DNA from: an uncultured Candidatus Altimarinota bacterium
GTDB lineage: Bacteria; Patescibacteriota; Gracilibacteria; BD1-5; UBA6164
Assembly: GCA_937944145.1 (NCBI GenBank)
Contig: CALDZK010000001.1
Location: 1 to 64,000, forward strand
Length of the DNA stretch: 64,000 nt
Direction: 5' to 3'
The number at the start of each line of letters is the position of its first letter. Within the stretch, counting starts at the first letter, position 1. Positions 4,291 through 62,117 of the stretch are shown one piece after another. The position numbers and the translations under genes were made by a program. The notes beneath the pieces are model-generated. The model had not been told where the DNA came from, did not search any database, and saw nothing but the letters and a program-made list of their open reading frames with translations.

Positions 4291-4318
4291 GAAAAATCCC
4301 CATATAGGGGATTTTTTA
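4291..4318. terminator. Intrinsic terminator at the end of aspS
   Basis: AAATCCCC-ATAT-GGGGATTT hairpin flanked by A and T runs. The T-run overlaps the aspS stop codon. It separates aspS from corA downstream. Confidence 0.8.
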
Positions 4319-6139
4319 TTCTTCTTCTATCTCTACTTTGAGTGAGAGCTCTTGGAGCATTTCATCATCTACTGCAATTGGAGAGTTCATCATAGCATCT
4401 TGAGCCTTTCCAGATTTTGGAAATGCGTAAATATCACGGATATTATCTTCGTTCAGATAAATCATCATCAGTCTATCAAACCCGATCGCAAATCATCCAT
4501 GTGGAGGAACTCCATATTGAAACGCTTCATATACAGCACCAAATTTTTCTTTTACTTCATCTGCACTTCTTCCTACTGTCTCAAATGCCTTTACCAGTGA
4601 CTCAATATCATGGTTTCTAATCGCTCCTGAGAGTATTTCGTATCCATTACAGGCAAGATCATACTGATATCAGATGACGTCCAGCAGATCATCACCTGTT
4701 TTATCAAAGTCAGATGGTCCACCTTGTGGCATAGAAAATGGATTATGCTCAAAATCTATTTTCCCGGTAACTTCATCTTTTTCAAAAATCGGAAAATCAG
4801 TAATCCAACAGAAAGAAATTTTGGTAGGATCTTGAAGCTCTAATAGTTCTGCAAGATAGACTCTAAATCTCCCCATATAGTTACATACCAAATCTCTTTC
4901 CCCTGCTCCGAAGAATATTACATCTCCCACTTCTAACTCTGTTCTCTCTACAATTTCTTGCAGGTCAGATTCTTCGAAGAATTTATTGAGTGGTCCTTTG
5001 AGCCCGTCTTCTTTCATTTGAAAATATCCAAGTCCTCCTGCTCCAAACTTACGCACGTAACTTTCAAATCATTTCATCTGAGTCTTTGAGAATACATTGT
5101 CTCCTCCTGGGACCTTGAGAGCTTTGATTCTATTAGCCTGAGTATCAGCTGCAATTCCTGAAAATATTTCGTTTGAGCTTCTCGCGAAAATATCTGCGAC
5201 ATCAATGAGTTCAAGTCCATATCTCAGATCTGGTTTATCTGAACCATATTTTTCGATAGCTTCGTGGTGCGTGAGTGTGAAAAACTTTCCACCATTTCTC
5301 ATTACATCTTTTCCAACTGTTTCTGAGAGTACTTCTTGCGAAGAAAGATCCTTTGTAATATCTAGGAGATACTCCTCAACTACGGTAAATACATCGCTCT
5401 GCTCTACAAAAGACATTTCACAATCCACTTGGTAAAAATCCCCTGCGTGTCTATCAGCTCTTGGGTCTTCATCCCTGAAACATGGTGCAATTTGGAAGTA
5501 TTTATCAATTCCCCCAACCATGAGCAGTTGCTTAAATTGTTGTGGTGCTTGTGGAAGTGCATAAAACTCTCCTGGGTTCAATCTACTTGGCACGAGGAAA
5601 TCACGTGCTCCTTCTGGAGAAGAATTCGCAAGAATCGGAGTTTGTACATCCAGGAAGTCTCTCTGAGTAAACCAGTTTCTTGTATAGGTTGTCATCTCTG
5701 ATCTGAACTTGATAAAGTCCTGAATTCTCTGAGTTCTAATATCAAGATATCGATATTTGAGTCTAATTTCTTCGTTTGCCTGATCACCATGTCCATCCAG
5801 TTCAAATGGAGGGGTTTTTGCTTTCGATATAAGCTCTACTTTCGAAGTAATGACTTCTATTTCTCCTGTTTTCATATTTGGATTCGCCTGACCATCTGGT
5901 CTACTACGTACTTTCCCTGTTGCTTTGATTACATACTCAGATCGAAATCCATCAGCTGTTGCGTGAGACTCAGCACTGTCCTCTGGGTCAAACACTACTT
6001 GAGTGAGTCCGTATCTATCTCTGAGATCTATAAATATAATTCCACCGTGGTCTCGTCTATTACTTACCCAACCTGAAAGCACTACTTCTTCTCCAATATT
6101 TTTTGCTGTAAGTTCGCTACATTTGTGTGTTCTATGCAT
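4316..6139 (-). CDS. aspS: Aspartyl-tRNA synthetase
   Basis: A 607-residue class II synthetase charging tRNA-Asp (possibly also tRNA-Asn, since gatB and gatC are in this window). The N-terminus holds the OB-fold anticodon-binding domain ([13 protein letters not shown]...IDLRDRYG). Next come motif 2 ([12 protein letters not shown]) and the bacterial GAD insert, and the catalytic core continues to an acidic C-terminus ending EIEEE. Length fits bacterial AspRS at about 590-600. The start is ATG 6139. A structured leader of about 200 bases precedes it with T-box features (separate entry). Confidence 0.96.
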
Positions 6140-6160: not shown

Positions 6161-6200
6161 AAAAAAACACATGAATATACGTATATATCTCATGTGCTTT
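6161..6200 (-). terminator. Regulated terminator in the aspS leader
   Basis: On the minus strand CACATGA pairs with TCATGTG around an AT-rich loop that can itself pair (ATATA/TATAT), followed by T7. It lies just upstream of the aspS ATG, so termination here would block aspS. Its base (AAAG) is shared with the antiterminator helix, the expected mutual exclusion. Confidence 0.7.
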
Positions 6201-6360
6201 CGGTTTGTAGTATCTACAAAAGGTGCCACCTAAAGCTGTTTCTTAATTTAATTTTTATGTCGGAGGTTTGAAACTCCGGAGGGGTCTACTAAGAATTATC
6301 TGTTCTTCCCTCTAGCATCGTCCCGTGTCGCGAGACTCAAGTGCTTCTAGGATGTATTGT
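6161..6360 (-). promoter_or_regulatory. Candidate T-box riboswitch leader of aspS
   Basis: On the minus strand, 5'-GCUUUAGG (6229-6236) can pair with CCGAAAGC (6196-6203). Directly inside lies the 7-base bulge UGGCACC (6222-6228), then a second helix UUUGUA/UACAAA. This is the T-box antiterminator layout: helix, UGGNACC bulge, helix. The variable base is C, which would pair with discriminator G73 of tRNA-Asp, matching the downstream gene. The 3' arm overlaps the start of an alternative terminator hairpin (6161-6200). A further hairpin CGGAG/CUCCG lies upstream (6261-6279). I could not fix Stem I or the specifier codon by eye. Confidence 0.65.
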
Positions 6361-6397
6361 ATAGAGAACTGGAGAAATGCAAGATTTTTGTCAGGAA

Positions 6398-60683: not shown

Positions 60684-62117
60684 TTATTTGAGTTTCTGTC
60701 TGAGTAGTTCATTGAATATCTTTGGATTCCCCTGTCATTTACTACGTTTCATACACTGCCCTACAAAGAACCCAAATATATTTTCATTTCCTCACTTGTA
60801 GTCAGCGACTTGTGTCTGACAGTCAGCAAGTACTTCATCAACTATTGCTTCCAGAGCTCCTGTATCATTTTTTTGTCTGAGATTATTTTCATCTACGATG
60901 ATATCAGCTTTCCCTCCATTTTGAAATAACTCCTCTATTACCTGTTTTGAGTTGGTAGAAGAAAGCTCATCAGCATTGACCAGTTCTATCACTCTTGCAA
61001 ATTCTGCGATATCGAACCTGAGGTCATCCACCCCATTAACTTCATCTGATTCACTAATCATCGCGAGTAAAATAGTCGTAATGTAACTACATGATTTTTT
61101 TGGGTCTTTTGTAAGTTCTACGAGTTTTTCAAAATACGTAGTCAGACTACTGTCAGTTGTGAGAAGTCTTGCATCATCCTCTTTGAGTTTGTATTCACTG
61201 AGATACCTAAGCCTCTTATCTATAGGAAGCTCTACGAGAGACTGTCTACACTGCTCTATAAAATTATCATCTAGATCTATAGGAAGCAAGTCTGGTTCAG
61301 GAAAATACCTATAATCCATAGCATCTTCTTTGCTACGTTGTGTCGTACTCATACCTGTATCGTCATTCCAACCTCTGGTTTCTTGATCTACTTCTCCACC
61401 TGATTCTACTATTTTTTTCTGACGTTTGAACTCGGCATCGATACATCTCCCGATAGCAGAAAATGAATTTACATTCTTATGCTCTGTTCTGTTCATGAGC
61501 TCACTACTTCCCTGCGGTCTGATAGACATGTTCACATCACATCTGAGTTGTCATTTTTCCATATCTGCATCACTCACCCCAGCTGCGCGAAACATCTTTT
61601 GAAGTTCTTTGAGAAATTCCATTACTTCTTGTTTGGTCGAAAAGACTGGATCAGTTACTATCTCCATCAACGGACTCCCTGCTCTGTTGAAGTCACAGAG
61701 TGTCTGTCATCCTGCGTGTGAGAGTTTTCCTGCATCATTTTCCAGATGCATATGATGAATCCCAAAAACTCTCTCTTCTCCATCCACGAGGACTTTTACT
61801 TCTCCAGCTCAGACGATAGGTTCATAGAGTTGTGTGATCTGAAAACTCAGGGGAGAGTCCGGATAAAAATAACTCTTCCTATCAAAACGTGAGTGTTTAT
61901 TGACCTCGCACCTCATCATCATCCCTCCTATAGTTCCCAGACGAACTACTTCTGAATTCAGACTTGGGAGCATTCCTGGAAACCCCATACATATAGGACA
62001 TACATTGATATTTGGTTCAGCAGCGAGTTCTATTGCATTTTTACAGCTACAAAACATCTTGGTCTCTGACTTGATACGTACGTGTATCTCGAGTCAGATT
62101 ACTTTTTCATAGGTCAT
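60684..62117 (-). CDS. gatB: Aspartyl/glutamyl-tRNA amidotransferase subunit B
   Basis: A 477-residue protein: IGLEIHVRIKSETKMFC, then CPICMGFPGMLPSLN, KSYFYPDSPLSFQITQLYEP, HMHLENDAGKL, NRAGSPLMEIVT, QLRCDVNMSIRP, and YRYFPEPDLLPI. The C-terminal YqeY-like tail reads GQGNPKIFNELLRQKLK. It is the substrate-binding subunit of GatCAB. gatC is far away at 15.2 kb. Length is usual. Confidence 0.96.

Follow-up and report, generated by a model that had tools for sequence, protein, structure and literature searches.

In Class III T-boxes, Stem I is short and lacks the double T-loop; these T-boxes display their specifier within an apical loop of 5-6 nt, depend upon Stem II, and act mostly at the level of translation (PMC10482949). 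According to reviews, a T-box that acts on transcription usually requires a long Stem I with a double T-loop that grips the tRNA elbow, whereas those with a short Stem I are mostly translational (PMC7583486, PMC10482949). In the S-turn of the Nocardia farcinica ileS leader, G37-A38-A39 faces G67-U68-A69-G70-A71, and the substitution G67U costs little (PMC7583486). A tandem, or two-codon, T-box of the indirect asparagine route is reportedly found in the clostridial gatCAB operon; in that indirect pathway a non-discriminating AspRS and GatCAB make Asn-tRNA-Asn, with gatB encoding the partner subunit.

The leader described here precedes the aspartyl-tRNA synthetase gene of a bacterium of the Candidate Phyla Radiation (CPR) that reads UGA as glycine, and was found in a stretch of 64,000 nucleotides that is referred to below as the window. 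It is located on the minus strand, within a gap of 258 bases between the stop codon of the upstream gene and aspS, and corresponds to an RNA of approximately 190 nt (about 6350-6161), the start of which, near 6350, is inferred from the position of the -10 box. Along that strand the order of elements is promoter, Stem I, Stem II, Stem IIA, linker, antiterminator and terminator with U7:

6377 to 6382, minus strand: probable -35 box TTGCAT, read from the sequence (TTGCAT or TTGCAA at the same place in many relatives, for example L028, L022 and L024)
6356 to 6361, minus strand: probable -10 box TACAAT, read from the sequence (TATAAT in relatives), with a 15-nt spacer to the -35 box in the window
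6314 to 6345, minus strand: short Stem I with K-turn, AGCA-CUU-GA-GUCUC[GCGACAC]GGGAC-GA-UGCU, from a comparison of hairpins
6327 to 6329, minus strand: specifier codon GAC, positions 3-5 of the 7-nt apical loop (in relatives, AAC in aspS leaders and AUC in ileS/ilvA leaders)
6280 to 6312, minus strand: Stem II with S-turn (loop E), GAA ... GUAGA inside the helix GAGGG/CCCUC, with a variable apical hairpin
6261 to 6278, minus strand: Stem IIA hairpin, CGGAG[UUUCAAAC]CUCCG
6237 to 6260, minus strand: linker with conserved AAAUUAAG
6196 to 6236, minus strand: antiterminator, with helix A1 at 6236-6229/6203-6196, bulge at 6228-6222 and helix A2 at 6220-6204
6222 to 6228, minus strand: T-box bulge UGGCACC, of which UGGC is complementary to GCCA-3' of tRNA-Asp
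6161 to 6200, minus strand: intrinsic terminator, its 5' arm beginning with AAAGC of helix A1, then U7
4316 to 6139, minus strand: aspS, aspartyl-tRNA synthetase, 607 aa, code 25 (UGA=Gly)

Neither the promoter nor the terminator of this leader was listed by generic scans for such elements. The finding is real; on the strength of sequence comparison, and with tRNA binding untested, the leader is almost certainly a complete T-box with the short-Stem-I layout of Class III. Its control of aspS by transcription attenuation, through an ultrashort Stem I of Class III type, is considered very likely (probability roughly 0.93), in the absence of any binding, termination or expression data. What sequence and comparison do establish are the parts themselves, the fact that they are conserved and covary, the agreement of codon and bulge base with particular tRNAs and genes, and the presence of a competing terminator.

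When set beside the Class III ileS leaders of Nocardia farcinica and Mycobacterium (PMC10482949, PMC7583486, PMC10651847), the aspS leader displays: (i) a short Stem I that has a K-turn but lacks the double T-loop by which the elbow is bound; (ii) a codon in the apical loop followed by A, a IIA hairpin, and an antiterminator-type module with a UGGN bulge; and (iii) as in N. farcinica in particular, an S-turn GAA/GUAGA in Stem II, along with a matching K-turn sequence. Unlike those leaders, it closes with an intrinsic terminator where they have a Shine-Dalgarno sequestrator; with a terminator upstream of aspS, it falls outside the Class III criterion of translational regulation (worded as 'mostly', PMC10482949, and hence not absolute). 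It departs from them further in the reach of its scaffold, which in CPR is also placed before aspS, ilvA and (in other CPR) valS, and in its loop of 7 nt by standard pairing (5-6 nt in Class III), its 8-nt bulge, and its CPR host with UGA=Gly. With Class I (RF00230, the Bacillus subtilis tyrS type) the leader shares transcription attenuation, the logic of specifier and UGGN bulge, and the Stem II S-turn, and RF00230 scores related CPR valS leaders significantly, below threshold; in contrast to Class I, it has no long Stem I or double T-loop, shows no evident Stem III in the window, and is undetected by RF00230. The relation to Class II (B. subtilis glyQS) is a side comparison only, concerning a glyS leader of this genome that lies outside the window (G000:C3): it lacks Stem II and carries a bulge A that matches U73, whereas its Stem I is short, unlike that of glyQS. 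The clostridial gatCAB T-box is similar in its link to transamidation-dependent Asn-tRNA synthesis, and differs in that a single codon (AAC or GAC) is found here, before aspS. The leader is classed, by inference from sequence comparison, as a T-box of Class III architecture that is new in mode, genes and host; the comparison with Class III rests on the published pattern, no actinobacterial sequence having been aligned directly.

Stem I, approximately 32 nt in its whole length and without a double T-loop, has an upper stem flanked by GA/GA or near-equivalents. Across 39 distinct hairpins of aspS and ileS/ilvA leaders this upper stem is paired throughout (100%), and each of its positions shows three to five kinds of standard pair. 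Counted by standard pairs, the apical loop has 7 nt in nearly every leader, or 5 nt if a non-standard closing pair is allowed, and the GAC of the window occupies the exact loop position of AAC or AUC elsewhere, within an intact 5-bp stem. Stem II of the window reads GAGGG-AAGAA-hairpin-UUAGUAGAC-CCCUC (6312-6280). The S-turn bases AGAA and xUAGA are present in all 66 leaders parsed, in which the first base of the GUAGA strand varies (G, U, C, A) and UAGA is invariant, and the surrounding helix shows compensatory changes. The tip of Stem II often bears long insertions, some resembling dispersed repeats, with the S-turn retained (L025, L027, L104, L115, L116, L127, L132, L045). A pseudoknot IIB, joining the IIA loop to downstream bases, is supported by covariation in 11 leaders of one family of relatives (GUUC/GAAC, ACUC/GAGU, GCUC/GAGU, GUUC/GAAU) and is not evident in the window's own leader. 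No Stem III hairpin was found between IIA and A1 in the window, where a conserved AAAUYAAG is present instead; relatives L031, L052 and L134 contain insertions at this place in the linker.

Helix A1 consists of GCUUUAGG (6236-6229) and CCGAAAGC (6203-6196), forming seven pairs and one A-G mismatch; UGGCACC is followed by one extra unpaired U, giving a bulge of 8 nt, and then by helix A2 (UUUGUAG/CUACAAA, 6220-6204), which comprises 7 bp closed by an AUA loop. The folding model predicts that terminator and antiterminator exclude one another. For the 3' domain, the computed folding energy is -21.9 kcal/mol in the terminator state and -17.6 kcal/mol with A1 forced, so that in the window the terminator state is favoured without tRNA by 4.3 kcal/mol; deprived of the shared AAAGC bases, the terminator hairpin falls from -13.1 to -6.0 kcal/mol. 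The same state is favoured by 0.6 to 7 kcal/mol in relatives for which the terminator was correctly delimited, a comparison that excludes L012, L022, L024, L026, L029, L039 and L051, which were cut at an internal U-run and for which the values are meaningless. Folding of the whole leader alone did not yield the functional fold (z -0.6 without the terminator), and a comparison of relatives was therefore needed.

With the AspRS protein as query, aspS loci were collected from 60 related genomes, and the leader was found to recur before aspS in many of these relatives, with the same short form in all that were aligned. RNAalifold, applied to 20 homologous aspS leaders with no structure supplied, recovered Stem I, Stem II and A2; of the 24 pairs, 16 show compensatory changes. 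A covariance model built from the aspS leaders (R1, the E-values of which are rough) matched in 52 of the 60 genomes, usually twice per genome; of the 53 genomes in which aspS was matched, 31 have an R1 leader adjoining that gene and about 22 have none beside it. Because of this covariation, and of the recurrence of the model's matches in relatives, the structure is not a product of chance. Among 380 genomes drawn across the phylum, 67 contained R1 matches, mostly before ileS among the loci read, and some of these phylum-wide leaders precede valS and display GUC in the loop. Several weak R1 matches (L137, L138, L141, L142, L144-L147, L149) look like chance and were rejected. All of these counts describe related sequences, and the codon-bulge pairs discussed below derive from a few paralogous lineages and are not independent events.

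Evidence for tRNA sensing comes from the joint change of codon, bulge and downstream gene. In a second class of leader the loop reads AUC at 45 of 46 loci, the bulge is UGGUACC or UGGUAAC, and the downstream gene is ileS or, in G013, G027 and G034, ilvA (threonine deaminase); at five such loci, this genome's own copy among them, the gene does not lie within 1.5 kb, and ileS was located further along in all five. The aspS class pairs AAC with UGGCACC, except for the window (GAC) and G015, where the bulge is UGGUACC (its U can pair with G73). The resulting tally is AUC/U 39, AAC/C 18, GAC/C 1, AAC/U 1 and AUC/G 1, the last being G002, in which the bulge in the sequence reads UGGUAUU and the script took a later match. 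A third type, located before glyS, has the bulge UGGAACC and no Stem II, and in four genomes it reads U-GGG-A, U-GGA-A, U-GGG-A and U-GGC-A, all of them glycine codons. The tRNAs of this genome carry G73 (tRNA-Asp, GUC), A73 (tRNA-Ile, GAU) and U73 (tRNA-Gly, UCC), and the bulge bases C, U and A of the aspS, ileS and glyS leaders are complementary to these discriminators in three of three cases. Since codon, bulge and downstream gene change together, and all three discriminators match, no non-tRNA hypothesis that was considered predicts the pattern.

Several further observations concern these leader classes. Many isoleucine leaders (L092, L094, L099, L100, L110 and others) have UGGUAAC rather than UGGUACC, the last bulge positions varying while UGGN is kept. 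This genome's AUC leader, which lies outside the window (G000:C12:6658-6827, L058), leads into an operon that includes ileS; a tRNA-Ser(GGA) gene and several small ORFs separate the leader from ileS, and it is possible that its terminator gates the tRNA-Ser(GGA) gene as well. The glyS-type leader of this genome (G000:C3:9414, L001/L054; outside the window), without Stem II and with UGGAACC, precedes a nuclease-like ORF and glyS; in this UGA=Gly organism the codon of the glyS-type leader is of the GGN type and not UGA.

An earlier, sequence-only reading of the region had proposed a T-box antiterminator and terminator before aspS, and this is supported, with the correction that the element is of the short-Stem-I Class III type and not classical. 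Every piece described in that reading is at its place on the minus strand, exact apart from A2, given there as UUUGUA/UACAAA and one bp longer (7 bp) in the present analysis; the AAAG said to be shared by the terminator and the first helix also held, the shared stretch being AAAGC. The proposed match between bulge C and G73 of tRNA-Asp held as well, with G73 confirmed on this genome's tRNA-Asp. Stem I, Stem II and IIA (6345-6261) were absent from that description, and its interval, ending at 6397, extended too far upstream, the -10 box being at 6361-6356 and the RNA start near 6350. It had named as refutation the lack of a specifier-bearing Stem I together with loss of the UGGCACC helix in related aspS leaders; both halves of that test were survived, in that Stem I bears a specifier (GAC in the window, AAC in those relatives that were read) and related aspS leaders retain the UGGCACC bulge along with its helices. 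The aspartate specifier that it suggested looking for is present in the window as GAC, while relatives instead display the asparagine codon AAC.

That asparagine codon is best considered alongside the gene content of the group. An asnS gene over the curated cut-off was found in none of the 60 genomes, and an asparagine route based on AsnRS was rejected on that ground, whereas gatB exceeded its cut-off in 56 of 60 and is encoded in the same window:

60690 to 62117, minus strand: gatB, amidotransferase subunit, TIGR00133 over cut-off

It follows that AspRS most likely also charges tRNA-Asn, and the enzyme is probably non-discriminating, an inference from gene content and from what is known of the indirect pathway. 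A pattern located tRNA-Asn(GUU) in 45 genomes, and the tRNA carries G73 in every one of them; AAC and bulge C therefore form a coherent tRNA-Asn sensor, and the AAC leaders of relatives probably sense tRNA-Asn, for which there are no binding data. A single-base difference at the first position of the codon separates the GAC of the window from the AAC of relatives, and GAC fits tRNA-Asp. No tRNA-Asn was found in this 98% complete draft assembly by a tRNA family search and the pattern, and this is the only genome with an aspS codon GAC; since other tRNAs are missing too, an assembly gap is the likelier cause of the absence.

The sequence-only reading had also asked whether the Rfam T-box model (RF00230, threshold 93 bits) would recognize the leader. 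When run, that model gave no match on the leader at E<=10 and none over its cut-off anywhere in this genome, and all Rfam models together returned nothing on the leader. In this genome a weak RF00230 match (L002) was also noted, and L001 is a real glyS leader. On four leaders found by R1 (three valS, one ileS), RF00230 scored 31-52 bits (E 1e-8 to 4e-3; 1e-8 to 1e-5 for the valS leaders), below 93 bits, and an independent model thus ties the group to the T-box family. RF00230 alone, applied to the 380 phylum genomes, matched in 127 of them at E<=1e-3 and in 13 over cut-off; the matches in these 13 span approximately 210-300 nt, which indicates that CPR hold longer T-boxes too. A pattern combining the AUC loop and the S-turn identified 75 stretches in one-per-species GTDB genomes, hosted by Saccharibacteria, Gracilibacteria, Nomurabacteria, other Patescibacteria and unnamed bacteria. 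Downstream of 57 of these stretches there is an IleRS-type signature; the only record labelled Anaerolineae lacks the bulge. By sequence comparison, the short T-box variant is widespread in the CPR and is largely missed by standard models. The earlier reading knew of no T-box described in a UGA=Gly CPR lineage; as a correction, the RF00230 counts show T-boxes to be common in CPR generally. No literature joining the T-box with CPR, Patescibacteria, Gracilibacteria or Saccharibacteria was found in the open-access literature searched, subscription papers being outside its scope; CPR T-boxes may have been mentioned before, and the few canonical ones will already carry an Rfam-type annotation. The novelty resides in the variant and its use (Class III architecture, transcription termination, genes, CPR host), and not in the bare presence of T-boxes in CPR.

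In the mechanism proposed, RNA polymerase would transcribe Stem I, with its K-turn and GAC loop, and Stem II, with its S-turn; the anticodon GUC of uncharged tRNA-Asp would pair with GAC while the S-turn holds it from the side. The free GCCA-3' of the tRNA would then pair with UGGC of the bulge and stabilise A1/A2, as inferred from known T-boxes, and formation of A1/A2 would withhold AAAGC from the terminator, allowing transcription of aspS. Charged tRNA would not fit, the terminator would form, and transcription would stop. In most relatives the AAC switch would probably read tRNA-Asn, the charging of which would start with a non-discriminating AspRS and end with GatCAB.

The rival explanation that survives best, and is nonetheless unlikely, is that the leader is a T-box in which GAC is not the functional codon, and that it still answers tRNA-Asn (for example through a shifted register) or both tRNAs. 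In its favour are the AAC of all other aspS leaders read, the probably non-discriminating AspRS, and the G73 common to tRNA-Asn and tRNA-Asp; against it, GAC occupies the exact AAC/AUC loop position within an intact 5-bp stem, and a tRNA-Asp(GUC) with G73 is present. A constitutive or protein-regulated attenuator, that is, a conserved structured RNA and terminator without tRNA sensing, is very unlikely: a terminator and conserved structure would fit any attenuator, and no binding data exist, but a protein ligand would predict neither the joint change of codon, bulge and gene nor the match to three of three discriminators. A reading as a simple terminator was rejected. A classical Class I T-box with a long Stem I overlooked upstream, suggested by the earlier interval's start at 6397 and the intergenic nature of the upstream stretch, is all but excluded and was rejected for want of room before the promoter-proximal Stem I: the -10 box at 6361-6356 leaves only about 5 nt, the short form is found in all relatives aligned, and RF00230 does not match.

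With tRNA-dependent attenuation by a short-Stem-I T-box retained as the preferred reading, a bolder joint interpretation also appears likely: that CPR run a large and largely unannotated set of Class III T-boxes, which terminate transcription without the tRNA-elbow contact thought necessary; that in Gracilibacteria this set couples aspS to tRNA-Asn via the indirect asparagine route; and that a change from AAC to GAC re-aimed the switch of the window to tRNA-Asp. Short-Stem-I leaders that end in intrinsic terminators contradict the division of T-boxes into long-Stem-I, transcriptional and short-Stem-I, translational forms, and these compact systems (approximately 190 nt) are offered for testing that division. 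They also represent amino-acid-responsive regulation in ultrasmall, host-dependent bacteria, and provide a natural codon-swap series on one scaffold (Asn, Asp and Ile, plus Val in other CPR).

Two observations were made in passing. In-frame UGA codons are absent from aspS in a sister family (the f2 relatives, for example L023, L027, L029 and L030) and numerous in the window's family, so that recoding load, as measured by in-frame UGA in aspS, varies strongly within a single order. G075 carries a c-di-GMP-II riboswitch (L161:2432-2515; RF01786, 62.6 bits, over threshold) close to a CPR valS T-box.
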